Source of the DNA: Nectonema munidae
Taxonomy: Eukaryota > Nematomorpha > Nectonematoida > Nectonematidae
Length of the DNA: 64,000 bases
NCBI GenBank assembly: GCA_030549495.1
Contig: JAUIRK010000855.1
Coordinates: forward strand, 1,281,501 to 1,345,500
Reading direction: 5' to 3'
Position numbers and translations under genes: made by a program. How positions within the stretch are numbered: position 1 is the stretch's first letter; each line of letters begins with the position of its first letter. Below the pieces are notes generated by a model, which did not search any database, was not told the DNA's origin, and was given only the letters and a program-made list of their open reading frames with translations. Below, piece after piece: positions 965-47,301 of the stretch.

Positions 965-1228
965 CCCGTTAACCCATTTAAGACCAAGCAAAGCAGACGA
1001 TATCTAAAAAAAAACGCAGACGATTTATATTCAAAGTCATTGAAAAAAGCAGACGAAGATGAAATTACTTATGTTCCAAAATAGGAACATTGGTCGTAAA
1101 TGGGTTAACGACCACAATAATTAGACGATATCTAATGTAAAGCAGAAGATTTGTATTAAAGAGGTTTGATAAACGCAGACGATTTTATTTTTGTAAAGTC
1201 GAATATAGTCGACATGGGTGTTAACGGG
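965..1228. mobile_element. piggyBac-type MITE, subfamily 1, interrupted
   Basis: A miniature element flanked by TTAA (961-964 and 1229-1232) with ends CCCGTTAACGACC and its inverse. It is split by a second TTAA element at 973-1104. Without the insert it is about 128 bp. The body carries CAGACGA repeats and a GTCGA-containing inverted motif near the right end. TTAA targets and CCC ends are typical of the piggyBac superfamily; the assignment is by these features only, as there is no coding capacity. Confidence 0.8.
973..1104. mobile_element. piggyBac-type MITE, subfamily 2, nested
   Basis: A 132-bp element with ends CCCATTTAAGACCA / TGGTCGTAAATGGG. It has been inserted into the TTAA of the subfamily 1 element, with TTAA duplicated at 969-972 and 1105-1108. 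It contains three CAGACGA motifs and the 20-bp palindrome ATGTTCCAAAATAGGAACAT at 1071-1090. A second inverted copy is at 15443-15574. Confidence 0.85.
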
Positions 1229-1232
1229 TTAA

Positions 1233-2905
1233 ACGTTTAAAAAAACAAATATATTTTTTAAAACTAACAAGTTTTTATTCGAAAACTCAGATTAGGCATT
1301 ATGGCTGTTTAAAAATTAAAAACTATTTATTTTCACTTTATAAGCTTGAAAGTTTTTGTGATAGAAATTGTTTTGCCTGTAATTTATGGTAATTGGGTTT
1401 TTTTTTATATTCTTTCCTCTTTTGGTCATTAAAATATTACTAACGGTATTTTATTTTCGTATATTTTCCTCTCTAGAAATCCAAAATACGTCCATTTTCG
1501 CTTATGATTCTTCATATGATGTTAATTTTCAATTTTGTGGAGAAAATTTTTTTTATATCACTTTTGTTAAAACACATAGTCTTTTTTTTCGAATCTTTTA
1601 CACAAATTTCTTCTCTCTCTCTCTCTGCTATACTTACATAACGTGCGTAGTATTGTACCTAAATTTCTTGGTGTATCATTAACGCAAGATTTATATTTCT
1701 TTCATTTTATATTTTTATTTATGCTCTTAATTGTTTACAAATTTATTTTCATACAACTACTTTTTAGAGTCTTAGCAAAACTAGGGAAAGCCCTACTTCT
1801 TTTTCTCCACCAATTTTTCTTGTGATATATCTTTTTTTACTTATTTTATACACTCCCTTCTCTTTTTCTTCCCCAAAAAAAGGTGGTTTGTGGTATTTTT
1901 TTTTTTTTTATATATTTTTTTTATATATTTTTTCTTACATATCCTTCCTTTATTGATTTTTTTTATAAGTATAAATATCCTAGAATTACAATATCCTAAA
2001 AATACTGACTTCCACACTACGATTATATCTCAAAACTAGAAATCTTTGATATATACATATAAAATTCTTATAAAAATAGCTTAAAATGTCTAACATTCTA
2101 CCCAACTACTTCACAACAAAATATTCTCTATTTTGATAAAACTTATTTACTGAAATCTATTAATTTTTATGTTTTATGCAAGTAAAATTTTTTAAATTTT
2201 GATAATATTGAATTAAGAATACCTTTAGAAAATTTAATCGTCATATCTCATCATGATGAATCCAAGTGATTTTTTTTAACTTTTAATTTTTTATTTTTCA
2301 TCTACCCATTTTCAATATGGCTTTTTAATGTTTATATAATAATTTCTTAGTATATTCTTAACTACAGCACTTTTTAGTAATTAATTTATTTTATCAAATA
2401 TTCTATTTTCATAGGTATTATTTCATTTAATATATTTGTAGCTTTTGTCCTTAAATTTTTAATAGATCATTTTTTATTCTGCCATAAAATTATAAAAAGA
2501 TTAAACTTTAAAAAAAGACACTTTTTATTATTTATCTCTAAAAGTCTATTTTTTTCTGATTATATTAACTATAAAAGATAATAAATGGTACATAGTTTTT
2601 ATTCAAATTTTTCGACCACTATTGTCACAACAGTTCTTAAATAATGGGTAACGAGTTCTATCTTAAAAATTTTATGAATGAAGACTACTATTCTTCGTTT
2701 TTTTGGTTTGTCAGAGTTACTTGGTTTATGTATTATATACAGTTTAAACTTTAATTCAAATTAATCTAGTTGATAGAATTTTTTATATTTGGTTTATAGT
2801 CTTTATTTTAATTTTTGTTTTATTTTTTTTTTAGCAAATCCTATAAAAATCCAAGCATTTTATTTTGCATAAGAAATTTTTTCATTTTTTGTTACGACAT
2901 ATTAT
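1233..2905. other. AT-rich non-coding stretch
   Basis: T-rich sequence with long T runs and short pyrimidine repeats. Open frames at 1386-1682 and 1643-1825 are low-complexity Phe/Leu/Tyr strings without domains. Nothing else was recognised. Confidence 0.6.
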
Positions 2906-2913
2906 GTTTACAG

Positions 2914-3520
2914 TAGTGATTGGACAATACCAAAGTTTTGTACAATTTTTAATGCCGATTCTTAAAAAAATATACGATTCCTATACCAATTCTTAATTTG
3001 AAACATTTAAAAATTTTAAAGCTTTTTATTTCATCTATTGAAAAACAATACACACAACACAGGCAACTATATACGATTTAAAGTGACATTAAATTTAAAT
3101 ATAAAGATATATGCAAATATGTTGAAATTATTAATTATTAATCACTTTTCCTGTATATTTAGACACATAAACACAAGAATAATAAGATTTTGAATATTAT
3201 ATTTATTAGCTTTTTTAAATTTAAGCCCGGGAAAACTTTTTTTTATGTTTTACTATATTAAAATTTAGTAGATAAAATTGTCTTGTGTTAAGTAAAAAAT
3301 TTATTTTAATTTTTTTATGTGTTTTAATTTGGAACATCAATAAATCGAGTTAAATATAATTAAAAGTCAATTTATTTAAAATAGGTTAACTTAAATGCTC
3401 CTAAAAATTAAAAGAATCATGATTGATGTATCGGAAGGTACTAATCAAATTTTTAAATGAGATTCTGATTCTGATATTGAAAAACATAATTCTCACGATA
3501 CCTGGTTTCTATCATCACTC
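2914..3520. mobile_element. hAT-type miniature element
   Basis: The left end begins TAGTGATTGGACAATACC and the right end is TTTCTATCATCACTC, imperfect terminal inverted repeats. The element is flanked by a nearly perfect 8-bp duplication, gtttacag (2906-2913) and gtttgcag (3521-3528). The 8-bp target is the hAT signature. No transposase remnant is visible in the 607 bp. Confidence 0.55.
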
Positions 3521-4049
3521 GTTTGCAGCATCTGTAATTGAGCTAAAGGATTGTGAACATTTATTTCATCATTGATGAGAGTTTTTTAATACAAAAGAAA
3601 TATAACTCTGTGATTCTATCAAGGCTGCATATTAAAAAAGTTTGGTGACTGTAGCGTATCTATTCCTCAAAATTTCAAATAGTACTTCAAAACGCCCAAA
3701 ACTTTATAATACAGGTATATAGTTAATGGGAAATTGGTATGAAAAGTGAAGCAAATCATTATTGCATTGCAGTTCAAAATATTTTGATTAATATTTTTTT
3801 AATGATGTTTTATAAATAAATTCTGCGTCCCGAGAGCACCGCACCTCCTGCCTCTCTTGATACGCCATAGGCTTGCCCTGGCGATCTCTTTGCCAGCCTC
3901 TAAACAAATGGATTCTAGCTTTACCTGCTATTCTTTGTTTTCATTTTCTCCTCACTCTTACCAGTGTTGATTCTTACTTGTAAAAGGATTAGAAATATAA
4001 ATTATAAATGGAAGGAAAGAGGGAAGATATGATCAACTATTCCTTATAA

Positions 4050-4192
4050 AAGGTAAAGGGACAGTGGGGTGTTTTCATCGAGAAGGCACATTTGCGCTGC
4101 TTGTATCGAACTATGAGGAAAGTAGGCTTGATGCGGGATCGAACCCAAGACCTTCAGTTATCGAAACCCAGTATCTAACCAACTGCCGCTCC
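4050..4192 (-). mobile_element. tRNA-derived SINE, family S1
   Basis: On the minus strand it has an A-box-like head, a canonical B box (GGTTCGATCCC type) and a tail related to GCCTACTTTCCTCATAG then a C-rich ACACCCC block. The same unit recurs at 5024, 7589, 15114, 20902, 42380 and 59690, in both orientations. Confidence 0.75.
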
Positions 4193-4610
4193 TAATTTAT
4201 AGTATGTTTGAATCACATTCCATTACACATCAATAGAATGTTCTACTAATGATAAAGCAGATTCTTCATCATATGCTGTACTTAAATTCTTTTTTTGGTT
4301 ATTTGAGAGATAAGCTCAAATCATTTACGAGTGGCTGGCTTGGCGCAAATCTTGGCTAATCAACAAGAGACACGTGTACTCAAGAAGCATACTTTTTTCT
4401 TGGTTGTTATGTACGCGTATACAAAAAATAGAGATTAATTTTACTTTCTCAGAATATTTTCTATTTTTCATGCAATTTTATTACAATTTTCTTTTCAACT
4501 TCTTGTGCCTATCATCTACTCATTCTTTTTTTCTCACCTCCTTTTCTCGCATTCCTAAAGTAATTCTATTTTTTTTACAAATCATTTTTATTTTTATGTA
4601 TTATAAACAG
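4193..4610. other. non-coding stretch between repeats
   Basis: AT-rich DNA with a pyrimidine-rich run leading to a good 3' splice site at 4608-4610. No domain or repeat end was recognised. Confidence 0.4.
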
Positions 4611-4739
4611 GGTTCGGTGTCGAACGGAAAATACCCGACGCCCATTCTGACTGCGAATACTTACAAAAATCTCACTTCAGACACTTTAAAAGTTAATAAA
4701 TTAAACGCCAACTCTTCTTCTTTATTTAAAAAATTTTAA
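4611..4739 (+). CDS. possible exon, unidentified
   Basis: A pyrimidine-rich stretch ends in a good 3' splice site (AAACAG, 4605-4610). It is followed by a short CpG-containing open stretch of 42 codons and a TAA stop. The base composition jumps above the flanks, as it does in the real exons of this window. No domain is recognised. It could be the last exon of an upstream gene, or an internal exon with an unseen donor. Chance is a serious alternative. Confidence 0.2.
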   Translation, partial: GSVSNGKYPTPILTANTYKNLTSDTLKVNKLNANSSSLFKKF

Positions 4740-4823
4740 TACTTTTTTTGTCTACGCATAGCTCACAAACTTACCATATCAATGTTTTCTTTGTTAAAAC
4801 CTGTGCGTAGACAAAAAATAGTA
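4740..4823. repeat. short inverted repeat
   Basis: TACTTTTTTTGTCTACGCA at 4740-4758 is matched by its near-perfect inverse at 4804-4823, separated by about 45 bases. The hairpin could form in DNA or RNA; its function is unknown. Confidence 0.6.
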
Positions 4824-5330: not shown

Positions 5331-5461
5331 CCCTTTCGTGACCAGAAAAATCAGACGATATTTATTAAAAAGCAGAAGATTCCTATACAAAACTATTTGA
5401 AAAAGCAGGCGAAGGTAAACATTGTTTATGTATCATATATGATACACTGGTCACGAAAGGG
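5331..5461. mobile_element. piggyBac-type MITE, subfamily 3
   Basis: A 131-bp element between TTAA copies (5327-5330, 5462-5465) with ends CCCTTTCGTGACCAG and its inverse. It contains AGACGATATT and CAGGCGA-type motifs and, near the right end, the 18-bp perfect palindrome TGTATCATATATGATACA (5429-5446). Other copies are at 7136 and 32664. Confidence 0.85.
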
Positions 5462-5983: not shown

Positions 5984-5998
5984 CTCTATAGTATAGAG

Positions 5999-7135: not shown

Positions 7136-7265
7136 CCCTTTCGTGACTAGTGTATCATATATGATACATAGACAATTTTACCTTCCTCTCCTTTTTCAAA
7201 TAATTTTGTATATGAATCTTCTGCTTTTTAATAAATATCCTCTGCTTTTTCTTGTCACGAAAGGG
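7136..7265. mobile_element. piggyBac-type MITE, subfamily 3, inverted
   Basis: Ends CCCTTTCGTGACTAG and CTTGTCACGAAAGGG. The left target has mutated to TGAA and the right is TTAA (7266-7269). The perfect palindrome TGTATCATATATGATACA is at 7151-7168, next to the left end, so this copy is inverted relative to 5331. Confidence 0.8.
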
Positions 7266-7904: not shown

Positions 7905-8034
7905 CCCGTTAACGACCAGAATAATCAGACGATATCTAGTATAAAGCAGAAGATTTGTATTAAAAAGCATTAATAAACGCAGACGATTCGCATTTTTGTA
8001 AAGTCGACATATGTCGACTGTGGTCGATAACCGG
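7905..8034. mobile_element. piggyBac-type MITE, subfamily 1
   Basis: A 130-bp uninterrupted copy between TTAA (7901-7904) and TTAA (8035-8038). It has CAGACGA-type repeats and the 16-bp palindrome GTCGACATATGTCGAC at 8003-8018. It is the best reference copy of this subfamily. Confidence 0.85.
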
Positions 8035-10106: not shown

Positions 10107-10700
10107 TGTTAAAGTCACAAGGACGAACCCAAAATGAAAAACGACGAACCCAAAATGAAAAACGACGAACCCAAAATGAAAAACGACGAACCCAATATGA
10201 AAAACGACGAACCCAATATGAAAAACGACGAACCCAATATGAAAAACGACGAACCCAAAATGAAAAACGACGAACCCAAAATGAAAAACGACGAACCCAA
10301 AATGAAAAACGACGAACCCAAAATGAAAAACGACGAACCCAAAATGAAAAACGACGAACCCAAAATGAAAAACGACGAACCCAAAATGAAAAACGACGAA
10401 CCCAAAATGAAAAACGACGAACCCAAAATGAAAAACGACGAACCCAAAATGAAAAACGACGAACCCAAAATGAAAAACGACGAACCCAAAATGAAAAACG
10501 ACGAACCCAAAATGAAAAACGACGAACCCAAAATGGAAAACGACGAACCCAAAATGGAAAACGACGAACCCAAAATGGAAAACGACGAACCCAAAATGGA
10601 AAACGACGAACCCAAAATGGAAAACGACGAACCCAAAATGGAAAACGACGAACCCAAAATGGAAAACGACGAACCCAAAATGGAAAACGACGAACACAAA
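10107..10700. repeat. 21-bp minisatellite, about 28 copies
   Basis: Tandem units of the form CGACGAACCCAAAATGAAAAA. Three early units carry AATATG and the last eight carry AAAATGG, so variant units are clustered. Because the unit is a multiple of three, several frames stay open (for example repeating MKNDEPK). There is no start context, splice site or non-repeat protein around it, so I do not call a gene. Confidence 0.95.
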
Positions 10701-10740
10701 AAAAATGCTATATAACACATGTTTTAATAGATTCTTTATA

Positions 10741-11667: not shown

Positions 11668-12733
11668 GTATTGTATTTTTGGGACTATATGGCGCACCGG
11701 ATTATAAGGCCGGATAAATATCAAGATGTATGTCTCGTTTCATACATGAGGCGCATAATAAAATTCAAACAAAATAAACTTTAAATTCCACTAGGAAAAA
11801 ATACCTACAATTATTCTCAATTAACGGTAATCATAGGAGGAAGTTTTTGACCATTAGCCTGGCAACCAAGAACTACAGTGAAGCAAGATTTTTCGTTGCC
11901 TGTGGTGCGAATAGATACTGAACTAGTTCCACTTTTCTCGACAGTACGATTTATAGGGATATCAAAAGTTAGTGGAATCTCATCCATATTAGAAATGTGT
12001 TTCAGTCGTATTTTTTTCTGCAATTAATTTTGTCAGTTGAGTAAAATAATCTTCGTAATCTTTTGGCAAAATAATCTTCGTAATCTTTTGGCAGTTGCTG
12101 GGAAACGGTCGTTTTTTGCGTGTATTGAAAGATTGTGTCTCTTCATAAAACGAAAGCACCAAGAAGGACCTCCTTGAAAGTTAATGATTTTCATTTCACG
12201 AGCTATTGCTTTTGCTTTCAGTCTAATTGAAACAGTTGAAATGCTTCTACCCGTTGTCCTTTGTTCAACATCGTTTTCTAACTGGGACCATCTAGCTTTG
12301 TTTCCTCTGAAATTTTGTTTTGTCTTCTTCACTTGGCGCAAGTCATCTTGTTTTTTCCAATTTCTTATCATAGATTCATTTATATTAAATTCTCTTGCAG
12401 CTGATTTATTTCCATGTTCTTTTGAATAATCAATAGCTCTAAGTTTAAAACTTGCTTCGTAAGCATGTCTTTTTGCAGGTATCATCAAAAATTAAATAGT
12501 ATAAATTCAATCTAAAGCATCTAAAATAAAAAACTATATCAAAATATAAAATATTTTGAAAAAATTAATTAATAAAAGATAGACATTTTAGTTAGAAGAA
12601 AGGAAAATTATAAATTCAAAATAAAATTCAAAATCTTTTTTTAAATTAAAAAAAGCTCCAATATAAAATGGCGCATTTTTGTTTTCAGAAAACATAAGTT
12701 ACTCAATGTGCGCCTTATAGTGCCAAAATTAGG
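11668..12733 (-). mobile_element. pogo/Tigger-type DNA transposon, degraded
   Basis: The outer ends are related inverted repeats: the left contains TTTGGGACTATATGGCGCA and the right TGCGCCTTATAGTGCCAAAA. Between them lies a broken minus-strand transposase (11817-12488). The element is about 1.07 kb, so the C-terminal half of the transposase is missing. A TA target is plausible at both ends but not certain. Confidence 0.7.
11817..12488 (-). pseudogene. pogo/Tigger transposase fragment
   Basis: Two consecutive minus-strand frames (12488-12033 and 12023-11817) read as the N-terminal part of a pogo/Tigger transposase. First comes a basic helix-turn-helix (KLRAIDYSKEHGNKSAAREF) of Brinker/CENP-B type, then a second CENP-B-like helix region (GGPSWCFRFMKRHNLSIHA). 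The start of the DDE domain follows (NMDEIPLTFDIP, then TTGNEKSCFTV and KLPPMI). The frame is broken by a direct duplication of about 25 bp near 12040-12090 and by stops. The later catalytic acidic residues are absent, so no active enzyme is possible. Confidence 0.85.
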
Positions 12734-13856: not shown

Positions 13857-13975
13857 CCTGTTATCGACTACAGTCGACTTTACAAAGATAAATCGTCTGC
13901 GTTTATCAATGCTCTTTAATACAAATCTTCTGCTTTGCATTAGATATCGTCTGGTTATTCTGGTCGTTAACGGGT
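13857..13975. mobile_element. piggyBac-type MITE, subfamily 1, inverted
   Basis: TTAA at 13853-13856 and TTTAA at the right. The internal AGATATCGTCTG and CGTCTGCG motifs are the inverse of the 7905 copy. A GTCGAC-type inverted motif lies near the left end (13866-13879). Confidence 0.75.
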
Positions 13976-15442: not shown

Positions 15443-15574
15443 CCCATTTACGACCAATGTTCCTATTTTGGAACATAAGTAATTTCATCTTCGTCTGCTT
15501 TTTTCAATGACTTTGAATATAAATCGTCTGAGTTTTTTTTTAGATATCGTCTGCTTTGCTTGGTCTTAAATGTG
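15443..15574. mobile_element. piggyBac-type MITE, subfamily 2, inverted
   Basis: A 132-bp inverted copy of the element at 973-1104 with TTAA at 15439-15442 and 15575-15578. The palindrome is at 15457-15476. The length is identical to the other copy and divergence is low. Confidence 0.85.
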
Positions 15575-17373: not shown

Positions 17374-17492
17374 CCCGTTAACGACCAGAATAATCAGACG
17401 ATATCTAATGTTAAGCAGAAGATTTTTATTAAAAAGCATTGATAAACGCAGACGATTTTATTTTTGTAAAGTCGGCTCTGGACGTTAACCCG
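17374..17492. mobile_element. piggyBac-type MITE, subfamily 1, eroded end
   Basis: TTAA at 17370-17373 and 17493-17496, with the same internal order as the 7905 copy. The right palindrome is degraded to GTCGGCTCTGGACG and the last bases read CCCG instead of CGGG. Confidence 0.75.
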
Positions 17493-22683: not shown

Positions 22684-23186
22684 CTTCTATCTAATTTGCA
22701 TTTAGAGTTAAATTAAAATAGTTTCCAATTGTTACAATTTTTATATCAATGAATATTGTTAGACTCGCGCTAAGAATTTTTTTCAACAAAAGTTACTTAA
22801 TCTTTATCACTACGTTTGCTACATTTTGTAACATTTGAAATTTTCAAGTCAAATTTTTTTAAAGAGTTATTTGGGTATGAATATTTTGATTATCTATTCA
22901 CTTTAAAAGCAAGAATACTCTATTTGCTTAATATTTGAGCAGAGATATTTTTATAATGTTCGATTGTTAAATTTTATAAATAACACTGTACATAATCAAA
23001 TCACTTTTTTTAAGAAAATTTGTTGATTATTATTATAATAAAAATATAATATCGAAACAAAATGTTTCAGTTGTTAAAAATGTACTTGATCTATTTATGA
23101 CAGCTGTCAGAATTTTATTTGTAGACAGAAATATTCAAAAAAAACGCAATGATTTTCTTTTCTCGTATACTTTATTTATGTTAGTT

Positions 23187-23590
23187 TGGTCCTCGGACAT
23201 TTCGCCCCATTATTTTCATAAGACAGTTCGTCCCATGGACAATTCGCCCCATTATTTTCATAAGACAGTTCGTCCCATGGACAATTCGCCCCATTATTTT
23301 CATAAGACAGTTCGTCCCATGGACAATTCGCCCCATTATTTTTATAAGACATTTTGTTTCAAGGACGATTCGCCCAGTTATTTTCATAAGACATTTTGTC
23401 TCATGGACAATTCTAAAAAATTAAGAGATAAATTGATTAATTTGAAATAATTTAATAGAGATAAAATAAACAAGAATATAAAATTTTTTAATAATTTTAC
23501 ACATAATAAGCAAAGATGGATGAAACTAATAGCTTATAAGACAATTTGTCAGGGGGTAAATTGTCTATTGGGCGAAATGTCTGTCGACCG
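23187..23590. repeat. 42-bp tandem repeats inside a foldback
   Basis: About five units of 42 bp (core GACAATTCGCCCCATTATTT) at 23200-23410. They are flanked by inverted motifs GGTCCTCGGACATTTCGCCC (left) and GGGCGAAATGTCTGTCGACC (right). As 42 is a multiple of three, a repeating SPHYFHKTVRPMDN frame appears. It is not a gene. Confidence 0.85.
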
Positions 23591-23825
23591 TTATTTAAAT
23601 AATTTTTTAATTATAAGGGCTAGCTACTTAAAGGTTGGCTTTTGCTGCTTATAAAAACTTGACAATATCAAATAAACTCTAATTATTTATGCCTCCTATT
23701 ATTTTGAAATTATTCTGAGAACAGATGTTTCAATTTTAAAATAGTGAAAATTGCTTTATTAGTTTATTTTGTTTCCTTTCTCTCTTATGTTAATTATGAA
23801 GCAAATTTTTCAATTTTGAGTAAAA

Positions 23826-23972
23826 GGTAAGGTGCAGCGGATGTATTTTCATTGACCAGGCACTGATGTACCGCTTATGTCAAACTATGAACAAATTCGT
23901 ATCGATGAGGAATCGAATCCATAGGCTTCCGTGCTATGTCCATCATCTCAACCAACCTGCCATGCCACCCAT
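23826..23972 (-). mobile_element. tRNA-derived SINE, family S2
   Basis: On the minus strand there is a tRNA-like head (GGCATGGCAGGTTGGTTGAG), then a B box (GGATTCGATTCC), then a tail ending CAGTGCCTGGTCAATGAAAA. It is present at the same place in copies A, B and C, so it inserted before they spread. Confidence 0.7.
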
Positions 23973-24781
23973 AGATTATGCTGTAGGGGATATGTCAAAT
24001 TAGTTTTCAAAAAACTTAAGTTATGCTCTAAAATTTTTTAGTTTTTGTTGAAGCTCTATAACTTTTTCTGATAGACTTTTTTTCCTTAAAAGTTATTATA
24101 AAAGGCAAATCATTGCAAAATGTTAACAGTTATTTTACTTTATGTAGATTTTTGTAGCTTGTATCAATTTAGCTTTTAAACTATTTTTGAATGATGCTGA
24201 GTAAAATGAAATAATGCGATCTTAATTTTTTGTTTTATTTTTGTTTGCACAATTATAACTTCGTTTTATACCCTTGCCCCTGAATCAATCACATTTTTTT
24301 CATATAAACATCGCAGGGTGTCTATTAGACTCTTTGCCTTTAGACTACATTCACTCATATAAAACTACCAAACCTTCAGTTATTTGTTTTCTCTATGAAT
24401 CAAATACTTTCATCAATTCCTGTAATGTGTCAGGTAGACTACTTCATTTTTCAAATGAAAAGCCTATTCCACCCCCTAACATTTTTGGATTTTTTTAAAC
24501 TAATGTATATTCTGCAAACTTAATTAAAATATTTTCGCTGGAAGTATAGTATTTAAATTCACAAATTTTGTAAAAAAATATATAAAGTAGTCTTATAAAT
24601 TTAGGATAAATTTAGCGCTGAGTACACTTTATTTTAAAGGATTGCTTGAATATTTGGTCTCTGGTGGTATTTCCAGACCACTAATTTTGAAAATTGCAAT
24701 AAAAAAATTTCGCCCCCCCCCCCCCCAAATAATTTTGAGGATGTGCGCCCCTGTCTTATATCCGTTTCCCATACTTTCACA

Positions 24782-25464
24782 CATGGGCCTCGCTGATATC
24801 TTAAAAGTAGGGGGGACATTTTTGAAAACAAAAATTTTTTAAACTTACAAAATTAGATTTAGGAAAAATTAAACAACACATTCGTAATAACTAATAATTT
24901 TTTATGTTTTTAACTATAAATATTTAAAAAATATATACTTTTTTCCATATGTAAATCAATCAAAATATTTATTTTGAAAAAATTTTAAACAAAAAAATGA
25001 GAATTTTCCAAATAAATTTTCCCTCACATAACACATGTTTATAGCAAAGATGATTTAATATTTGTTTTGAAAGATGTGAATATTCATTGTTGTCCAATTC
25101 AGACATTTCACAGATAATTGAATATAATTATTCACATCTTTCAAAACAAATATTAAATCGTCTTCACTATAAACATGTGTTTCTTGTGAAGAACATATTA
25201 GACATTTTTATAGGTATCACATATTCACATGACATGTTTTATGATGTGTATATGCATACAAGATACAAGATCTGATTATAACTCCTTTATACATATGCTG
25301 TGTCAATGTCTATTTATGTATATAAAAATAGCTGGGAAAAATTTCGTATGTTTCTTTCAAAAAGTGGAGTGGACTTTTCTTTTTTTATTCAAAAGTAGGG
25401 GGGGATTTGTCCCCTCGCCACCCACCCCCCCCCCCCCCCCCCACCCCCTAAAATGAGGCCCCTG
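24782..25464. mobile_element. probable hAT miniature element with C run
   Basis: Ends CATGGGCCTCG and GAGGCCCCTG are short inverted repeats. A C run of about 20 bases lies near the right end (25426-25450). No matching target octamers were found, so the limits are tentative. It encloses the 25030-25181 hairpin. Confidence 0.4.
25030..25181. repeat. long near-perfect hairpin, 53-bp arms
   Basis: AACACATGTTTATAGCAAAG at 25030 begins an arm that runs to about 25082. The inverse arm is 25129-25181, with only two or three differences. The loop is about 46 bases. Transcribed from either strand it would give a long double-stranded RNA stem. Confidence 0.85.
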
Positions 25465-25574
25465 GCATTCATATTTTTCCGTATGAACTCTAGCTTCTAG
25501 CGTGTCTTTTCTTCTCTCCTTACTTTTCTTTCATCAGTATTTTTCCGTATCATCACCATAAGTGTAAATTCTGG

Positions 25575-27230
25575 TAACCGTTTAATGTCAGATGTTCCAT
25601 TTCTGGAACATTGAAAAAAATAGTGTTTTAATACATAATCAGTGTTATTCTTTTTAAATAAATATATTCAACAGACACCAGGCTTTATATTGAACATAAA
25701 AACCTTAAAAAATTGACGGAAAAATATATTGACACTTTTGATACGTCAATTAAAAAACACGTTTATGTAAAAATTTTACCTTCTATTGAAAAAATGAAAG
25801 AAAAAACCCTAGGATTTTGTTCCCAATAATTGTTTGCTTCAAAGAGTTTAATTAGAGTTTGAATAAAATGTTAAAAACTTAAAATAAAAAATAATTCAAG
25901 AAAAAAAAGTTTTTGTACCAGTTTTTTAAATGTTCCAGAAATGGAACATTGGCCATTTAAGGTATCTAAAATAACATTTTTGTAAAACTTTATTTATTAA
26001 TGATATAAAGGAAAACAAAGTTGATGGAGTCTTTTGTTACACAAATTGCACTTTTTCTTTTTATTTTTTTTGACAAATCGAACATCTTCCTTGTGTCGAC
26101 TCTACTAAATAATGTCCTTTAGTGACTCTCATATCTTTAGGTAGATGTGCTTTATGTCCTTGGCGTATTTCTTTCAACCTTCCCAATCCTATCAAGTGTA
26201 AAACAACATCTCTTCTAAATTCCAAGTGTGTTACTTTTTTTGAAGCATCAAGTTCGCATAAAAGTAGCCAAGCAGAAACAACGCTTAAGTTTAGTCCATT
26301 ACTAAACAGATTCCACCACCATTTTTTGCTTCTTATTTGAGGTCTGTAACTAGAAAAAAGCTTGTCAAGTGTATCCACTCCTCCCATACATTCATTGTAC
26401 TTTTTTACAATGTTCGGATAATTTACTTGTCTTTTCTCTTTGAAATTTTTGCAGTACCTTGAAATTCTACCCAGAGGAATATGCGAACAAAAATTGGAGG
26501 CAATATTCACAATTGAGTTGTCCTTCCAACTGCAAACATAAACTTTTCCGTCAGATCGATAGTCAAACTCCCCTCTTTCAACTTTTTTCTTTTTGTTAAC
26601 TATTGGGCATTTATTGATGCGATTTACACGAATTGTCCCAACTGCTTTAACATTTTTATCAATCAAAAGAGAAAAAAGTGAATGCGATGAAAAAAAATTG
26701 TCGAAATAAACTTCATGATTTTCGGGGTGAGTAAGTTCGTTCACAAACTTCAAAACAACATGCTCACCAACGCATCTTGATCCTTTTTCTTCAGTCCTTC
26801 CACAATAAATATCGATGGAAAAAGGATACCCTTTTTTTGAACACATTATCCATAGTTTATACCCAAAACGAATGGGTTTACCTTTTATGTATTGCTTACA
26901 AGAATGTTTACCATAATATGGTACCATCGAATACTCTTTATCACTTAAATCATCTTCTATGTAGTTCACAACTGAATTCAAGGTTGCAAATTTCATCAAG
27001 CGAAAACTAAAGGAAAGCCTGGAAAACAAGGAAGAAAAAATCGATATAATTTTAGCACAAGAAATGAAGAGAGTGTTTGCTTTATAATGATTCATTACTC
27101 ACACATGTGTCTATGCAGGTGCCTTATATCTTTAAAATAAAGTGACCTGCTTTTTTCTTGTATATAACAATATCATAGTAAAGTAGCCAATGTTCCACAT
27201 GTGGAACATTGCATTTGTCACTTGCATGTG
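25575..27230 (-). mobile_element. piggyBac-like element, degenerate
   Basis: Contains a minus-strand piggyBac transposase fragment (26061-27095). Palindromes ATGTTCCATTTCTGGAACAT (25592-25611), its inverse-like copy (25930-25949), and ATGTTCCACATGTGGAACAT (27190-27209) mark the subterminal regions. The first two sit in about 35-bp inverted repeats enclosing 25575-25972. No intact TTAA pair was found, so the outer limits are approximate. Confidence 0.65.
26061..27095 (-). pseudogene. piggyBac transposase, N-terminally broken
   Basis: An open frame of 344 codons. From about residue 55 it follows a DDE_Tnp_1_7 (piggyBac) transposase: MVPYYGKHSCKQYIKGKPIR, GYKLWIMC, GEHVVLKFVNEL, then EVYFDNFFSS with the second catalytic Asp, and GGVDTLDKLFSSYR with the third. 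The WWWNLF block and a short Cys-rich tail (CSIC) follow. The first catalytic Asp, expected just before MVP in an IDE-type motif, is replaced by an EYS context. The first 50 residues are unrelated and the usual N-terminal half is missing. The Cys-rich DNA-binding tail is also cut short. An active enzyme is unlikely. It lies antisense in a MAP7 intron. Confidence 0.85.
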
Positions 27231-27934
27231 ATGTTTTCAAATAAATCAAAAAGGTACATATACTCAATATAGTGATTAAAAATCAATAAAAACTGATTTG
27301 GAATAGAAAATTTATTTTTTTGCTTATTGGAGACTAAACGAGCGAACTAGCAAAGGATTTAGTAAGAAAGAAGTATGTTAGAAATAAACTGAAAATGGAG
27401 ACTTTTCTTTTTGAAATGAATAATTTTCAATTCTTTTATTAACTCATTTCAATTCAAATAAACTTTATTTTTTGTTGTTAATTATTATCTGCTCATTTTT
27501 AAAGTGGCTAAGGTACCTTAAAGTATAAGTTAATCCAAGAGCGTGTCAACCCGGCATATTGTCTAATCCGGGTACATTGTTTGCTGTGTTAATTTTTTCT
27601 GTTAACTGAATCGATACACCTTAGGCCTGAGTTCATCAATCCATATTGACAGTGGACCTGATCATTAATAAATAAACGAACGTGCGCTGGATGACCCCAG
27701 TATGTTCCAAAAAATAATGGCCAAAATAATATTTAGTGTACCAATTCATAAAAACTGAAACCTATAGGTTATCAACGAATTCGACGCAAGTAATATGATA
27801 TACAGAAGTTATTCCACAAAGACAGGTTACTTTTTCTCTAAATTTTCAGGACTCTGGGTTTATAGTAAGCGTAACAAATACTGCGACCACCATTATCGAC
27901 AGGCCTGAATACAGATAATTCTTTAATTTGATAG
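27231..27934. other. intronic AT-rich stretch
   Basis: No repeat recognised. It ends at the 3' splice site TTTGATAG (27927-27934). Confidence 0.5.
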
Positions 27935-28079
27935 CAAAAGAGATTGGCACTTTTGTCGAAGTATTGCGATCGAGAAGCGAAGATTGAGGAAATGCGAAAA
28001 TCCAAGCTGAACACGTGCTCTGCTATCTTTACCTCTACTCTGCAAAAGCAACCATACCCAACTATTACACCTCAAAAAA
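27935..28079 (+). CDS. MAP7: MAP7-like exon b
   Basis: Codes QKRLALLSKYCDREAKIEEM and then a Ser/Thr/Pro-rich linker ending TITPQK. The first half continues the charged helix of exon a, as expected after the RR-rich block of the family. The 3' splice site is TTTGATAG (an alternative at 27939-27940 keeps the frame) and the donor is AAAA|GTAAGA at 28080. Phase 0 at entry fits exon a; phase 1 at exit fits exon c, giving a Thr codon across the junction. Confidence 0.75.
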
Positions 28080-29127
28080 GTAAGAACCCTATTTCTATAT
28101 ATATTCTCTTCGACTTTTCACCCTATGAGAGATTCGTGTCCAAATATAATATCAGATTGGCATAGACTTCTAAAAAACCACGTGCAAACATGCTGTATAT
28201 AAAAATAGTTCAGAAAGTTATTTCAAAGATGAAATTATTGTCATGATCAAAGCGTTAGCGATACATAAGTAACTGATATAAATAAATATAAGAAAAAGAT
28301 TCAGAGAAGCATGTTGCACAGAAGGATCTCCTAAATCTCCTTAGAAAATCTTTATTTCTATAAATGACATGCTGATTACCAAATTTTTTTTACCAATTTT
28401 AATAATCCTGAACTCGATAAACCGGGAACTTCATTTTCCGAACAAAAGATTTTGGTAAAATAATTTTTGAATAAGAGTATATATTCGAAGACTCACAATA
28501 AACGGAAAAAAATTATTTTTTGAGACTATATATTTGCACATTTTTATGAATTCCATGTATGTTATGATCAAAATCATTGAATATACGTTTATACCTAATT
28601 TGAGCAAAAAACCTTAACGCAATACAGAAAAGGGAAAAAATTCTCAAATAAAACGTTTAAAAAAGATTTATTACACAAACGAACTCGAAATATATTCAAA
28701 CAAAAGAAAATGGAAGATTATTTGATTTGTTTTCTACTAATAAATTGAATTTCATAAATAATATTTTCAATTATTTATATTATGAAGGCAAAATAAAAAA
28801 TTTGTATTTATTTAAAAAAAATTAAGAGTTGCGATTTTTGAATTTTTTTTTCTTTTTTTATTCTGTGTTTAGCATTTATTTTTTTTACATTTAAAATGAT
28901 GATAAAATATTTGCTTTATTTTAACGCGAAGACCTTGAGTTAACTACAAAAGCTTAAAATTATTAAACCGGAAAAACATTGACCTCTGCAGAAATCACAA
29001 GCTTCGAGTCTTCTGGATTACTGTGGGTTGATTTTTTTTATAACTCAGTAACTCTGATAGTATGATGCAAGTAAGCATTTATAGTCTTTGTTAACTCTTT
29101 GTTAACAAAAATTAAGCTTGATTGAGA
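28080..29127. other. intronic AT-rich stretch
   Basis: Nothing recognised. Confidence 0.5.
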
Positions 29128-29514
29128 GTTACATTTTGTAACATTTGAAAACTTAAATTTTTCAAGTCAAAAAATTATTTTAATAGCTATTTGGGAATGA
29201 ATATTTTGACTAGCTATTCAGTTTAAAAGCAAGAATACTCTATTTGCTTAATATTTGAGCAGAGATATTTTTTATAATGTTCGATTGTTAAATTTAGTAA
29301 GTTACATTGTACATAATCAAATCACTTTTTTTAAGAAAATTTGTTGATTATTATAATAAAAATATAATATCGAAACAAAACGTTTCAGTTGTTAAAAATG
29401 TACTTGATCTATTATTTATGACAGCTGTCAGAATTTTATTTGTAGACAGAAATATTCAAAAAAACGCAATGATTTTCTTTTCTCGTATACTTTGATTTAT
29501 GTTAGTTTGGTCCT

Positions 29515-29905
29515 CGTACTTTTCGCCCCATTATTTTCGTAAGACAGTTCGTCCCCTGGACAATTCGCCCCATTATTTTCATAAGACAGTTCGTCCCATG
29601 AACAATTCACCCCATTATTTTCATAAGATATTTTGTTTCATGGACAATTCGTCCCGTTATTTTCATAAGACATTTTGTCTCATGGACAATTAAAAAAAAT
29701 TAAGAGATAAAATGATTCATTTGAAATAATTTAATAGAGATAAAATAAACAAGAATATAAAAATTTTTAATAATTTTACACATAATAAGCAAAGATGGAT
29801 GAAACAAATAGCCTATGAGACAATTTGTCCAGGGGACAAATTGTCTATGGGGCGAATTATCTATGAGGTAATTGTCTATGCGGCGAAATATCTGTCGACC
29901 GTTAG
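29515..29905. repeat. 42-bp tandem repeats, copy B
   Basis: About four units of the 42-bp repeat with more divergence than in copy A. They are flanked by the same inverted motifs. The right side has an additional partial inverted unit at 29820-29890. Confidence 0.8.
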
Positions 29906-29998
29906 TTTAAATAATTTTTTAATTATAAGGGTTAGCTACTTAAACCTTGGCTTTTGCTACTTATAAAAACTTGAAAATATCAACAATTTTGAGTAAAA

Positions 29999-30153
29999 GG
30001 TAAGGTGCAACGGGTGTATTTTCATTGACAGAGCACTGATGTACCGCTTATGTCAAACTATGAACAAATTCGTATCGATAAGGAATCGAATCCAGAAGCT
30101 TTTCCATGCTGAGTCCATCATCTTAACCAACCTGCCATGCCACCCATAGAGTA
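29999..30153 (-). mobile_element. tRNA-derived SINE, family S2
   Basis: The same insertion as in copy A, with point differences. Confidence 0.7.
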
Positions 30154-30634
30154 TTCTGTAGGCCGTAGGAGATACCTCAAATTAGTTTTCAAAAAACTTA
30201 AGTTATGCTCTAAAATTTTTTAGTTTTTGTTGAAGCTCTATAACCTTTTCTGATAGACTTTTTTTCCTAAAAGTTATTATAAAAGGCCAAATCATTGCAA
30301 AATGTTAATAGTTATTTTTCTTTTTGTAGCTTGTATCAATCTAGCTTTTAAACTATTTTTTGAATGATGCTGAGTAAAATGAAATAATGCGATCTTAATT
30401 TTTTGTTTTATTTTTGTTTGCACAAAACATCGCAGGGTGTCTAGTAGACTCTTTGCCTTTAGACTACATTCACTCATATAAAACTATCCAACCTTCAGTT
30501 ATTTGTTTTCTCTATGAATCAAATACTTTCATCAATTCCTGTAATGTGTCAGGTAGACTACTTCATTTTTCAAATGAAAAGCCTATTCCACCCCCTAACA
30601 ATTTTGGATTTTTTTAAACTAGTGTATATTCGAT

Positions 30635-31227
30635 GGTTGTAGGTAAAAATGGCCCAGGAAAAAATGCCATCGGAATAAATGCCCCTAATTAAAAAGTAGG
30701 AAAAAATGCCCCTAATTTTTGATGTTCAGGATTTTTTTTAATTATATAAATATTTTTATTTGGTTCCGTTTTGAAAGGCTAAATTTCTAAAATTTCTTAA
30801 TCTATATGGTTTTTTTCTTTATAAAGTTCTTGTAAACAATAGCAAAGGTGTAGATTTTTGGGAATGTGTTCTTAAAATCAGTTAAAACACAAATTATATT
30901 TAGGAAGTGTTCTGATACACACAAAGCCCAAAAATATTCGCTGTTTTATAAATTTTTTTTTGTATTTAAAAAATTGTCCTATGATGAGTTTTTTAGTTTA
31001 CTTTAATTAAATTTTAAATGTTTTAGATGAAGTTAACTTTTTGTTTTTTTTTACAAAAAATCTTTATTTGACATATCTTTTAAAAAAATTTTTTTTAATT
31101 TTAATTAATAATTTTTTGAAATTTTTTGTGTTGGGGCATTTTTCCCGAACATTTTTACTGGGGGTTCCTACTTTTTAATCGAGGGCATTTTTTCCTACTT
31201 TTTAATTGGGGCATTTTTTCTGCGCAC
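30635..31227. mobile_element. 593-bp insertion element inside copy B
   Basis: Absent from copy A at the same point. It is flanked by a 10-bp duplication tatattcgat (30625-30634, 31228-31237). Ends GGTTGTAGGTAAAAATGG and GCATTTTTTCTGCGCAC are loosely inverted. Both terminal regions contain repeated blocks of GGAAAAAATGCCCC / GGGGCATTTTTTCC with TAATTAAAAAGTAGG spacers. The superfamily is unknown. Confidence 0.7.
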
Positions 31228-31636
31228 TATATTCGATATGCAAATTTAATTAAAATATTTTCGCTGGAAGTATAGTATTTAAATTCACCAAATTTGTAAA
31301 AAAAAATATAAAGTAGTCTTATAAATTTAGGACTTTAGTTATGCGCTGAATACACTCTATTTTAAAGGATTGCTTGAATATTTGGTCTCCCGTGGTATTT
31401 CCAGACCACTAATTTTGAAAATTGCAACAACAAAATTTCGCCCCCCCCCAATAATTTTGAGGATGTGCGCCCCTGGTCTAGAATTAGTGAGTTTATTTTC
31501 TTGTAACAAAGTGTCCGAAAGCAAATTACCCGTTTGCGAATTGTGGTATTTTTTCATTAACAATGTTCGCGCAAAGTAGACGATTTTGAAGAGCATATAT
31601 GTTTGGAAATTTGAGTTCTTCAGTGTTTCTCTACAG

Positions 31637-32663: not shown

Positions 32664-32777
32664 CCCCTTCATGACCAGAAAAATCAGACGATATTTATTA
32701 AAAAGCAGACTATTTGAAAAAGCAGACGAAGGTAAAATTGTTTATGTATCACATATGATACACTGGTCACGAAAGGG
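32664..32777. mobile_element. piggyBac-type MITE, subfamily 3
   Basis: TTAA at 32660-32663 and TTAT at the right. Ends are CCCCTTCATGACCAG / CTGGTCACGAAAGGG. The palindrome has one change (TGTATCACATATGATACA). It is shorter than the 5331 copy by an internal deletion. Confidence 0.8.
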
Positions 32778-43359: not shown

Positions 43360-43530
43360 TCAAGCATCGCTTTTGTTTTTCCTATTATTTTTCGTATAAC
43401 AGAATCTTTTTGCAAGAGCATCTCTTAGGATATCGCAATCTAGTAAATGGAACAAAAGATCCCAGGCTTCAAATGACGGCCTATATAACTTAAAAAAATG
43501 TCTTAATCTGCAATGGCATGTTTTTTTGAC
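43360..43530 (-). CDS. possible antisense exon or pseudogene, unidentified
   Basis: A good minus-strand 3' splice site (CTAACTTTCTTTTTAG) precedes an open stretch with plausible protein texture (RPSFEAWDLLFHLLDCDILR) and a stop at 43360. Further along the same strand, in another frame, 43122-43331 is also open and protein-like (ITHLKNPCVQRNQLWKPPYY). This could be two exons or one frameshifted gene. I do not recognise the family. Confidence 0.3.
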   Translation of the reverse strand, partial: VKKTCHCRLRHFFKLYRPSFEAWDLLFHLLDCDILRDALAKRFCYTKNNRKNKSDA

Positions 43531-43642
43531 TAAAAAGAAAGTTAGAGAAGCTTTTACAACCATTAAACTATTTTTTAATTCTAAAAAATTTTCTTATAAT
43601 ATATTTTATGTAAAATTTAATATATCTAGTTTTGATCTAAAG

Positions 43643-46181
43643 CAGGGGTCACCAAACTTTTTTCTTAGAGGGCCGGATAACTGAAAGAATGGCGGGTGCG
43701 GGCCGCATAATCATTCTGTACAATACTTGCAAGCCAGAAAGAAAGCTTTAGTAGAAAAAAGACTACAAACTTAGTTTAGCATTCCATGTTAATTATGGGT
43801 GAGTGGCGTGAGATGCAGAAAAAAAACAAAGACAACCAACATATTTATTTACTAAAAAGTTATCAAAGAAGGCAACGTTAGCAAAAAGGTAGCTACATCA
43901 GACATAGTGTGCACATGTTCGAATATCACAAACTAAGCAGCAAAAAAGGTTAGTGAGACTTGTGAAACTGATGTTTGGCTTTTAATATATCAACAATGTT
44001 TGGTTTGAAATTGCTGCATCCAATCAATAGAATTGCTTTCAAATGTTCAGTCAATCTCGTTCGATATGTTGACTTTACATACTTCATTTTTGAAAATGTT
44101 TGCTCACAGACATAAGTTGTTCCAAACACTGATGCCATACCAGCGGCAAATTTCTTCAATTTCGGAAACTCAGCATCAGGTAAGCAGCGGTAAAATTCAA
44201 CAAGTTTTCCTTCTCTGTGCTTCTCTTTCAGCAAATCATTTGCGTGCAAATCAATGAGCTCCAACTGTAGTTCAACTGACACATCGTCAAGGTTACAACC
44301 AAACGGATTCTGGAACAGAAGAATATGACTCTCAATTCTTTTAAGATCTGAGAATCTCTCCAAAAAATGCTTATTCAAATCACGAATAATCTTTTTCGGA
44401 AAATCGAGGTTGACATCTTCAGCGACTGTAGCATAAAACTCTTTGAAACAGTGAAAATGAGAGAAGTTTTCTCCTTCCAGTTGTGCTTCAAACAATGACA
44501 GCTTTCTCCGAAATCCTTTGATGATTCTGTAGAGATCACAGATAAGGTTATCTTTTCCCTGAAGTTTCAGGTTCAGTTCATTCATGTGGGATGTGATGTC
44601 GACCAAAAATGCCAACTTTGACAGCCAGGTAGGATCTGACAGCTGTGGATCAGCTCTATCTTTTTCGGTGAGAAAAACATCTATTTCGTTTCGAAGCTTA
44701 AAAAACGAAACAAGACTTTACCGCAGCTGAGCCACCTCACTGTTGTGTGATAAGGCAAGTCACAGAAATCAGAATCAATTTCTTCAAGAAAAACCTGGAA
44801 CTGACGGTGATTGAGTGCATGTCCCCGAATGAAGTTCACCGCAGAAAGGACTGGTTTCAGTACACAAGAAATATCTAAGGTTTTCCCACAGAGTGCTTGT
44901 TGATGTATGATGCAGTGTATGAACAGAGCGCCCGGAATTCGCAAATCTTCTAAATGAGTCCTGATCTGCTCCACTAGACCCTTTCTCACTCCAGCCATGT
45001 TTTTTCCTCCATCAACTGTAACACCTCGGAGCTGATTCCACTGAAGGTTATAGTCTTGCAAAGTTTTCTGCGCTTCCGTGAAAATGTCTTTTCCAGTTGT
45101 TGTTCCATGCATGCTACAAACGGATGCCAACTCTTCCGTTATCTGAAAGTCTAAAGTGACACCACGAATGAACACGAGAAGTTGTGACGTACTCGAGAGA
45201 TCAGTAGACTCGTCTATCGCAAGAGAATACCACAAGAAGTTCCTAGCTTTCTCGTGTATCTGTAGCACTATGTTCTCTCCAAGTTCTTCTGTTCTCCGCA
45301 CAACTGAACTTGCCGAAAGGCTGATACCTCCAAACAAATTGGCTTTCTCAGGACACAAGTCATTTGCTGCTTCCATCATGCACTCTTTGATGAAGTTGCC
45401 ATCAGTAAACGGTTTTCCTCGCTCTGCCATCTTATGCACTATTTTGTAACTTGTATGAGTGACGGATTCATTTTCAGTAAACTTTCTCCTGAAGAGATTT
45501 CTTTGAGTTTCTAAACTACGTTTCATGGACTCATATTTCTCAGAGCGTAACTTTCCAGAAAACATTGAATACTTTGATATATGTTTTGTTTCATAGTGAC
45601 GCCGAAGATTGTACTCTTTCAGAACGGCAATACTTTCGCTGCATACCATGCAAGTAGCTTTCTGGTCCTTCATTTCTACAAAGAAGTACTTTACTCCCCA
45701 TTCTTCATTGAAAGCACGACACTCGGCGTCTACTTTTCTTTTCTTAGTAGCCATAACGATAATATTCTAAACTTAATATTTAAATTTAAATTATACGGTA
45801 AAACTTTTTATATACGACCTATGTTTTCTGCAGATAATCTCGGTCGTAATTCACAGGTAGTAATAATAATCTTAATTTTTTAAACAGGTAAATAAATAAT
45901 CTTAATTTTTATACACAAAAACAACAAAAATATTTTAAAAATTATTTTTAATCAAGCACACGTGTTGAATATTATTTATCAAATTTATTATATAAAAAAA
46001 TACAAATTAAGGCGTTCTTAAAAGTTAATATAATTTTTTTACTCTAGTATTTACAAAAAAATATTTTTTAATAAATAAGACAAAGAAAAAGAGATTTCAA
46101 AACAAAAATTTCATCCGCGGGCCTGATGATCTGACGTCGCGGGCCGGATCCGGCCCGCGGGCCGTAGTTTGGTGACCCCTG
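43643..46181 (-). mobile_element. near-intact hAT transposon, 2.54 kb
   Basis: Inverted ends CAGGGGTCACCAAACT / AGTTTGGTGACCCCTG and a perfect 8-bp duplication atctaaag (43635-43642, 46182-46189). The GC-rich subterminal region at the right (46118-46170) contains several GGCCCGCGGGCC-type palindromes. The transposase (43950-45754) has a single frameshift. Perfect duplication and mostly open coding suggest a young insertion, antisense in a MAP7 intron. Confidence 0.93.
43950..45754 (-). pseudogene. hAT transposase (GTF2IRD2/ZBED-like), one frameshift
   Basis: About 600 residues over two frames (45754-44681, 44615-43950) plus the short link between. It starts MATKKRKVDAECRAFNEEWG. A BED-like zinc finger follows (CMVCSES and RRHYETKH), then the split RNase H-like catalytic core with SLAIDESTD (first Asp), a VDGGKNM region and CIIHQQALC. 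The C-terminal hAT dimerisation block is CEQTFSKMKYVKSTYRTRL. The frame breaks at about 44700, where a run of six T would need one more base to continue; the link then reads on without stops. No other lesion is obvious. The relatives I recognise are transposases annotated as GTF2I repeat domain protein 2-like or ZBED-like. Confidence 0.9.
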
Positions 46182-46502
46182 ATCTAAAGTGATAAATAAG
46201 AAAGTTCCATTTATGCTCAATAAAAAAGTTTTTTACATCCAAATTTGGCCAGCAGTGACAATTTTTGCCCATATGTGGCCTAAGAGTTATTATTCTAATT
46301 TTGATCATAGTTGAATTTAGATCTTTAGAGGAACAGATTGTTGATCACCAAAACTGTCCTTAAGATCAAGATTTTACTTGTTCTTCCTTCGGCGTTCGCA
46401 AAGTTTCGCCCAGTCTAACTCCAACAAGTTATTAAACGTCTTAGACTGCGCACACCTGAATCAGTGTTCTTTTTTGTTTAAAGCGTTGTCGTCACATTTT
46501 AG

Positions 46503-46640
46503 AAATTGGAGCTGATCATGAGTCGCACTCGTAAATCCACTTCTTCAACTTCAAACAGCATTCCAGACCCAAACTCCACTTCATTCACGCACTCCTGTAA
46601 CTCCGAAGACGTCTTTTCCGTGTCCAAGACGTTGACTAAG
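46503..46640 (+). CDS. MAP7: MAP7-like exon h (RTRK motif)
   Basis: Begins KLELIMSRTRKSTSSTSNS. Joined to exon g this gives ERRKKLELIMSRTRKS, the end of the MAP7 domain (family form KKRLEEIMKRTR), so exon order and strand are well supported. Acceptor CACATTTTAG. The donor is less certain: AAG|GCATGC at 46641 is a GC-type donor that keeps phase 0 with exon i; GT choices at 46611 and 46620 are weak but also phase 0. Confidence 0.85.
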
Positions 46641-46933
46641 GCATGCCTTTGTTTTATCACTTTTTTTAAATGAAAAAATCTAAAAATTCAGGATGTGTTG
46701 TTTATGACCCGCAGATATTGCTATCTCGTTATATTATTATCAGCGTAACCAGTCCCTCAAAGGAAAGCAATTTTGTTCAACACCTTTTCATCCAAAAATG
46801 GTCATGAGATTAGGCTTAGGTTTCAGTAGTCATCGTAGTTCTTCGTTTCTTCGGATACCGCTGTATCCCCTTACTTCTCAAAGGGTTGACATATATCAAA
46901 ATTCATTCAAATAAAACAGACAATTGGATTTAA

Positions 46934-47046
46934 CCCGTTATCGACCGGAATAATAATAATCAGACGATATATAACGTAAAGCAGAAGAGTTGTATTAAAA
47001 AGCAGACGGTTTTATTTTTGTAAAGTCGACTGCCGTCGATAATCGG
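46934..47046. mobile_element. piggyBac-type MITE, subfamily 1
   Basis: TTAA at 46930-46933 and 47047-47050. Ends CCCGTTATCGACC and GTCGATAATCGG. Palindromic GTCGACTGCCGTCGAT near the right. It lies between two MAP7 exons. Confidence 0.8.
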
Positions 47047-47301
47047 TTAATCTCAATTTTTCTGCTCGAGTATGAGATGCTGAATTTGAAATTAATATAT
47101 AGGTACATGTCAGGAATTTTTTCATACAATTCCTATATGACATATGACCAAATTTCTTTCTGTTGAACACCCCATAAACTAAAAAAAAGATTAATGTATA
47201 GCGTTCAATATAAAGATGCCGCATTTAAAATATGCTAAAAGTCATAGTTTTCCTCGTTTCATTATAACGTTAGACTTTTTTTTTTTATTCGTTTTATTAA
47301 G

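Follow-up and report, generated by a model that had tools for sequence, protein, structure and literature searches.

The Cys-rich tail (Cys-rich domain, CRD) of piggyBac transposases binds a palindromic subterminal site as a dimer, as solved for the piggyBac of Trichoplusia ni (T. ni) and for piggyBat of Myotis lucifugus (PMC7351741, PMC11707139). In T. ni piggyBac the dimer sits on a palindrome that covers bp 17-33 and has its axis at roughly bp 25 (PMC7351741). In piggyBat the palindrome bound by the CRD dimer lies at bp 19-30 near one end; the right end is free of palindromes and instead carries GCGGGA-type motifs at bp 12-15, 22-27, 44-48 and 63-68 (PMC11707139). Here we describe three families of miniature elements, S1, S2 and S3, in a stretch of 64,000 nucleotides of the nematomorph Nectonema munidae (assembly GCA_030549495.1, contig JAUIRK010000855.1, positions 1,281,501 to 1,345,500; the window), which carry a palindrome near one end and a series of short motifs towards the other. 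We put the probability at roughly three in four that the families derive from one ancestral mini-element, and that the half-site of the palindrome is the address of a transposase lineage, its letters changing while its position, 24.5 bp from the TTAA, stays fixed.

The original prediction, made from the letters of the window, had listed ten elements in three related groups, and all ten were confirmed in their places and families by reading the sites and by blastn with representatives. The three family queries reached E 1e-3 at no further site of the window. The copies and their palindromes are:

965..1228 (parts 965-968 and 1109-1228), plus strand: S1 copy, split by a nested S2 copy; palindrome with one changed base (GTCGAATATAGTCGAC)
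973..1104, plus strand: S2 copy nested in the S1 copy, with TTAA on both sides
1071..1090, no strand: palindrome ATGTTCC-N6-GGAACAT of this S2 copy, by sequence reading
5331..5461, plus strand: S3 copy
5429..5446, no strand: S3 palindrome TGTATC-ATATAT-GATACA, centre 24.5 bp from the TTAA
7136..7265, minus strand: S3 copy; palindrome at 7151-7168, one flank TGAA
7905..8034, plus strand: S1 copy; sole exact S1 palindrome in the window, at 8003-8018, centre 24.5
13857..13974, minus strand: S1 copy; 10-bp deletion within the palindrome
15443..15574, minus strand: S2 copy; palindrome at 15457-15476, centre 24.5
17374..17492, plus strand: S1 copy; 10-bp deletion
32664..32777, plus strand: S3 copy; internal 16-bp deletion, one flank TTAT, palindrome arms intact
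46934..47046, plus strand: S1 copy; 10-bp deletion and further indels

At 113-132 bp, the ten copies are too short to encode a transposase. TTAA stands on both sides of seven of them and on one side only of three, the other flank reading TGAA at 7136, TTTA at 13857 and TTAT at 32664. The S2 copy at 973 is inserted in a TTAA within the CCCGTTAACGACCA end of the S1 copy at 965 and itself has TTAA on both sides, so that the TTAA duplication is directly visible. Besides TTAA, the ten elements have in common short terminal inverted repeats with a CC[C/T]-type tip (CCCGTTAACGACCA, CCCATTTAAGACCA and CCCTTTCGTGACCA), GACCA at bp 10-14, CAGA(C/A)GA and GATATCT; the exceptions are GACTA in 7136, GACCG in 46934 and CACATTT at the other end of 15443, and the right tips of S1 are variable (CCGG, CCCG, CCTG, CCGA and CGGG). 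With their TTAA target duplication, CC[C/T]-type inverted repeats, non-coding bodies, small uniform size and high copy number, S1-S3 appear to be non-autonomous miniature inverted-repeat transposable elements (MITEs) of the piggyBac superfamily, new families of an already known kind of element. The predicted existence and grouping thus stood for all ten, while the shared flanks, GACCA and tip admit single-copy exceptions. The S2 palindrome is exact in both window copies, as described, and that of S3 in two of three, the copy at 32664 having intact arms and one spacer change. The GTCGAC-N4-GTCGAC ascribed to S1, however, is exact only in 7905, one of five copies; 965 has one mismatch, and 13857, 17374 and 46934 are short by 10 bp. 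In every window copy that has a palindrome, it lies near one end only, as had been said.

In the whole 211.6-Mb assembly (748 contigs), with the same pattern read backwards as the control in all genome-wide counts, the S1 palindrome with a free 4-bp spacer was found at 704 places (control 1) and the exact S3 palindrome at 372 (control 0); the S2 half-sites with a free 6-bp spacer occur at 2752 places (control 6), a count that includes palindromes of autonomous elements. Some copies are arranged in particular ways: a tandem array at C32:239649-243015 repeats the S1 palindrome every ~279 bp and is perhaps a MITE turned satellite, S3 sites at C592:183693-184079 are spaced by 193 bp, and at locus L017 two S2 copies have one TTAA in common. 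There is also an S2 variant (L008, L009 and L030) with the spacer CAAATG, in which both terminal repeats are altered around bp 7-14 and the palindrome arms are unchanged, L008 and L009 having been located through those arms.

The bodies of the three families are homologous, with local scores of 76-78 against shuffle maxima of 44-51, and the predicted relationship between them was borne out. Counted from the left TTAA, all three consensuses have GACCA at bp 10-14 and CAGA(C/A)GA at bp 22-28, 43-49 and 76-82; columns identical in all three make up 24/27 of the motif positions versus 22/45 of the other body positions. From the right TTAA, the palindrome spans bp 16-33 in S2 and S3 and bp 17-32 in S1, and its centre is 24.5 bp from the TTAA in the measured copy of each family. 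A palindrome occurs within 60 bp in 31 of the 1507 other TTAA-flanked stretches in the window, and in one of them it is centred at 24-25. Two substitutions in one arm and their mirror images in the other, in homologous columns, separate S2 (TGTTCC/GGAACA) from S3 (TGTATC/GATACA), and the two consensuses align without a gap across the palindrome and the inner flank, where the inner letters are shared. The palindrome had been described as exchangeable; between S2 and S3 the change looks stepwise and mirrored, unlike the swap of a cassette. The view that the families differ in the palindrome alone was rejected, since the outer nine bases of their terminal repeats differ too.

The layout can be compared with three described systems. 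As in S1-S3, there is in piggyBat a palindrome centred at 24.5 near one end (PMC11707139, PMC13405395), and the motif ladder of its other end appears similar to the left-end ladder of S1-S3; unlike S1-S3, piggyBat has other letters in its motifs and palindromes, two inverted right-end motifs, and three palindromes in its left end, where S1-S3 have one and encode no protein. The ends of T. ni piggyBac are likewise organised differently from each other (PMC7351741), but its half-sites, as reported there, are dissimilar, and S1-S3 are without a second palindrome; the T. ni type of architecture, with a near palindrome at one end and a far one at the other, was found not in S1-S3 but in the autonomous elements L041 and L048 (24.5 and 50.5 bp). 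The Acropora elements named CMITEs (PMC2872659) are, like S1-S3, TTAA/piggyBac MITEs, of ~100 bp; several families have one conserved internal region in common and are distinguished by their terminal repeats, and they too occur in tandem arrays and inserted into another element. No palindrome is reported for them, and the likeness is one of description. S1-S3 and CMITEs look like the same phenomenon, for which the latter are a published precedent. The authors of CMITEs described the origin of the internal part as unknown (PMC2872659); by analogy, our comparison suggests that such a body consists of binding motifs at fixed spacing, with the palindrome as the tuned part.

From these results, a hypothesis regarding the assembly may be put forward. 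Each family would keep the minimum needed by an asymmetric, piggyBat-like transposase assembly: at one end a terminal repeat and a palindrome centred 24.5 bp in, which would be gripped and bent by a CRD dimer, and at the other a terminal repeat and a ladder of short motifs at set distances, probably touched by the transposase core. On this sequence evidence the palindrome is most likely the docking site of the transposase tail. The letters of the half-site would be the address of a particular transposase lineage; in adapting to a different transposase, a family would change them through mirrored substitutions, and the position would remain unchanged since it is set by the geometry of the protein. 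We infer both the change of transposase and its direction.

Such an account supposes that autonomous piggyBac elements carry palindromes of the same kind, and those of the same genome do. A profile search with PF13843 gave at least 117 rows, 116 of 6799 first-look candidates having been scored, and 38 of the 117 loci were retrieved, of which 30 cover the greater part of the element and 8 its 3' part; at 60-75% protein identity they form 23 groups (L065/L071, 75.5% identical, being one group). Palindromes were found in 15 of the 23 groups, in 13 at least twice in the non-coding parts and in two (L061/L072 and L069) once per locus; L068, with one unrepeated site, was counted as having none. The half-site is TGTTCC in five groups, TGGGAC in two, GTTCCC, TGTTGC, CGTTGC, TGTMAG and TGGGTG in one each, and has a GTCAATTGAC core in three. 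When recurrence was tested in the first 30 loci with 20 shuffles each, the shuffles reached at most 26 and the best pair 29-36 in 12/30 loci, although this test overlooked some loci caught by the other palindrome search.

The register was read at 19 ends whose tip was recognised by eye in the retrieved stretches. The palindrome centre lies at 24.5-25.0 bp in eight of them (five groups), at 49.5-50.5 in three and at 140.5-145.5 in five. Two of the eight near ends have no intact TTAA (L038 TGAA, L062 AATT); L035, L063 and L055/L064, where a 14-mer resembling a tip lies outside the palindrome at the matching distance but TTAA is missing, are not part of this count. Six elements had two recognisable ends, and five of these have one near and one far site, at 24.5 and 50.5 in the T. 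ni-like L041 and L048 and at 25.0 and 143.0 in L038 and L040. In the L041/L048 and L065/L071 groups it is the GTCAATTGAC core that is centred at 24.5. The window itself holds a broken element with both kinds of site:

25578..27341, minus strand: broken autonomous piggyBac element assigned to the L043 group (97% over 285 aa), with an S2-type half-site and in all three TGTTCC-N6-GGAACA palindromes; neither flank is TTAA
25593..25610, no strand: its near palindrome TGTTCC-N6-GGAACA, centre 24.5 bp from the right end
25931..25948, no strand: its second palindrome, closely following the broken transposase frame
27191..27208, no strand: its far palindrome, centre 142.5 bp from the left end

By eye, the CRDs fall into two sets. 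The first has an upstream His followed by CxxC-CxxC-H/C-C-H and goes with TGTNNC- or TGGGNN-type half-sites, the second has Cys pairs of the T. ni kind and goes with the GTCAATTGAC core; the nearest solved protein is piggyBat for L043 of the first set and T. ni piggyBac, over nearly the whole length, for L041 of the second. Across the 15 groups, distances between palindromes rise with distances between CRDs (r 0.76), and the correlation persists when the tail of the catalytic domain is taken into account (partial r 0.59, permutation p 0.0003). With the outer six bases only, in the 12 piggyBat-type groups, the partial r is 0.66 for the CRD (p 0.001) and 0.24 for the catalytic tail given the CRD (p 0.15); when the proteins are intact as well (9 groups), the values are 0.47 (p 0.02) vs 0.31 (p 0.07). 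Bouallegue et al. are said to have surveyed piggyBac end types earlier. As far as searches of the open-access literature show, this table of CRDs and half-sites is the first within a single genome. A 2021 study states that it saw no straightforward correlation between the ends and the CRD fold (PMC8086355).

Conservation was measured on copies picked by their body letters, exact palindromes being compared with exact body windows. For S3, the palindrome is exact in 164/288 body-anchored copies (controls 2 and 0) and the body windows in 23/72 from 18 copies (p 2e-4), part of the S3 places sitting in arrays and hence being non-independent. For S2, the 20-bp palindrome is exact in 43/52 copies among the matches listed (1291 counted; control 2), and substitutions are fewer in the arms (5/728) than in the body (27/1472, p 0.04). 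For S1, the body-anchored pattern gave 758 genome matches at full spacing (reversed control 7) and 265 at a spacing 10 bp shorter (control 4). Among the matches listed for both patterns on contigs C4 to C121 there are 126 distinct anchored S1 copies, of which 26 match the short pattern alone, 24 both patterns and 76 the long pattern alone, the last being classed by spacing and not by intact letters. The 10 bp missing from 13857, 17374 and 46934 correspond to a deletion between the two GTCGAC repeats, and the same deletion on bodies of differing S1 sub-types makes recurrence via these direct repeats likely; the spread of one palindrome-short form is conceivable. As a separate observation, S1 right ends (e.g. 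8003-8034) contain a TCGAC-type half-site three times at 10-bp intervals, the outermost within the terminal repeat, and given this spacing the deletion leaves a near-palindrome moved outward by one helical turn. A uniformly conserved S1 palindrome was considered and rejected, short spacing being common among the anchored copies.

S2 has a near autonomous partner in the L062 group, the two right ends agreeing at 86% over 36 bp; this is the best partner found and the only near match. A search with a palindrome pattern forbidding MITE flanks gave two places for S2, including C728:372274. In the L036/L042 group the tip, CCCATTAATGACCA, is similar to those of the MITEs, and no palindrome was found in the retrieved stretch, which excludes the left end. 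Palindromes of the form TGTATC-N6-GATACAGACTT, which vary in their spacers but have a flank in common, stand at C318:599658, C587:1254763 and C722:495809, and it is possible, judging by these letters, that they belong to an autonomous family with the S3 half-site.

A number of results weigh against the account given above. Short spacing occurs in 50/126 anchored S1 copies, scattered over many places; S1 may therefore be able to do without the full palindrome, or the deletion may recur after insertion. In S2 the body windows are exact in 39/54 cases from 18 distinct copies, which does not differ significantly from the 43/52 palindromes (p 0.25), still less when the variants L008, L009 and L030 are removed (35/45, p 0.61), and the difference in substitutions also disappears without them (arms 5/728, body 11/1227, p 0.80); the S2 palindrome shows no clear excess of conservation over the body. 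With intact proteins only (12 groups, leaving out L050, L053 and L064 with a broken CRD or frame), the partial r of the CRD falls to 0.41 (p 0.01) and that of the catalytic tail given the CRD is 0.45, so that the CRD carries information of its own on the palindrome but common descent accounts for about as much. The flank-forbidding pattern yielded no autonomous partner for S1 (9 places, reversed control 0) or for S3 (14 places, control 3), most of the places looking like MITE variants by their flanks; this absence is weak evidence, because an unrelated site is estimated to have only about a one-in-three chance of matching a pattern of this kind. Eight of the 23 transposase groups have no acceptable palindrome, none was found at 3 of the 19 ends (the right ends of L036, L042 and L056), and L043, with both ends recognised, has the near site only and no far one, unlike the window's broken copy of its group.

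Part of this material can be explained otherwise. If one promiscuous piggyBac transposase moved all three families via the tip, GACCA and the body, the palindrome would be a drifting passenger, and the common body and GACCA, the many S1 copies short of 10 bp of palindrome and the weak showing of S2 in the conservation test would follow; the authors of CMITEs did propose that tip and internal region could suffice for cross-mobilisation (PMC2872659). Drift, however, would not preserve the complementarity of the arms, and the changes between S2 and S3 are mirrored; the S3 palindrome is more conserved than the body, and the palindromes of autonomous groups, each peculiar to its group, share the register and covary with the CRD, all of which makes a single such enzyme distinctly improbable. 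Somewhat less improbable, though still unlikely, is the capture of whole ends, terminal repeat and palindrome together, by recombination from different autonomous elements onto one MITE body. The joint difference of terminal repeats and palindromes over a shared body, and the 36-bp match of S2 to the L062 right end, are what capture would leave, but S2 and S3 align without a gap through palindrome and inner flank with the inner letters shared, and no autonomous donor with an S1 or S3 end was found. That the palindromes are operators for self-repression of the transposase, or sites of host transcription factors, and not transposition sites, is very doubtful: autonomous elements do have extra palindromes adjoining the open reading frame, e.g. 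~40 bp past the stop of L035, but MITEs with no gene to regulate still retain the palindrome, in a fixed 24.5-bp register seldom met at the window's other TTAA sites.

Weighed in this way, the idea of the original prediction that the palindrome is the specificity module of each subfamily, replaced as transposases diverge, is upheld for the most part: it holds as regards group-specific palindromes in one register and their covariation with the CRD, and needs correcting as regards exchange, which between S2 and S3 looks like mirrored point changes and not the swap of a cassette, and as regards the terminal repeats, which differ as well. The proposed comparison of palindrome and body came out in its favour for S3 (p 2e-4) but not for S2 once duplicates and variants had been removed (p 0.61), and the full palindrome is often missing within S1, which is in part the outcome that the prediction had itself named as contradicting it. 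Covariation with the CRD was seen in 15 groups (0.59), although the catalytic domain does equally well with intact proteins (0.41 vs 0.45), and matching to autonomous elements with the same ends led to a near partner for S2 and, with patterns that many elements may escape, to none for S1 and S3.

The rest of the window contains other repeats and transposon remains. Long repeats at 22851-31449 and 56374-58115, direct at ~6.2-6.7 kb spacing and with an inverted copy near 57 kb, contain 42-bp tandem units and are not piggyBac MITEs; at 10122-10701 a 21-bp tandem repeat (27.6 copies, 99% matches) is open in several frames on both strands. Pfam matches point to remains of a hAT-like transposase at 43950-45754 on the minus strand (just under the cut-off) and of a Tc5/pogo-like transposase at 12033-12488 on the minus strand. 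An aldo-keto reductase in the window has at most 50% identity among the 120 matches listed, the named ones being animals, and the window gave no Rfam match and no tRNA match.

In a wider form, which we propose tentatively and at slightly less than even odds, piggyBac elements would follow a readable CRD-palindrome code in a fixed frame: each of many transposase lineages living side by side in a genome would have its own palindrome, made of two 6-bp half-sites and centred at 24.5 bp at one end and farther in at the other, at ~50 bp for T. ni-type CRDs or at ~141-145 bp for piggyBat-type CRDs, and MITEs would switch transposase by mirrored mutations on a motif-ladder body of core-binding sites at fixed spacing. 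The part worth following is the reading that letters drift while the register is constant, and that the near/far asymmetry differs by CRD type. With 15 palindrome-bearing groups of 23 in one genome, there is a testable table of CRD sequence against half-site at constant register, and among the MITE copies palindrome, tip and body vary independently of one another. If the code is true, the partners of orphan MITEs would be predictable from the palindrome, and natural CRD-palindrome pairs could supply the parts for mutually exclusive piggyBac tools.

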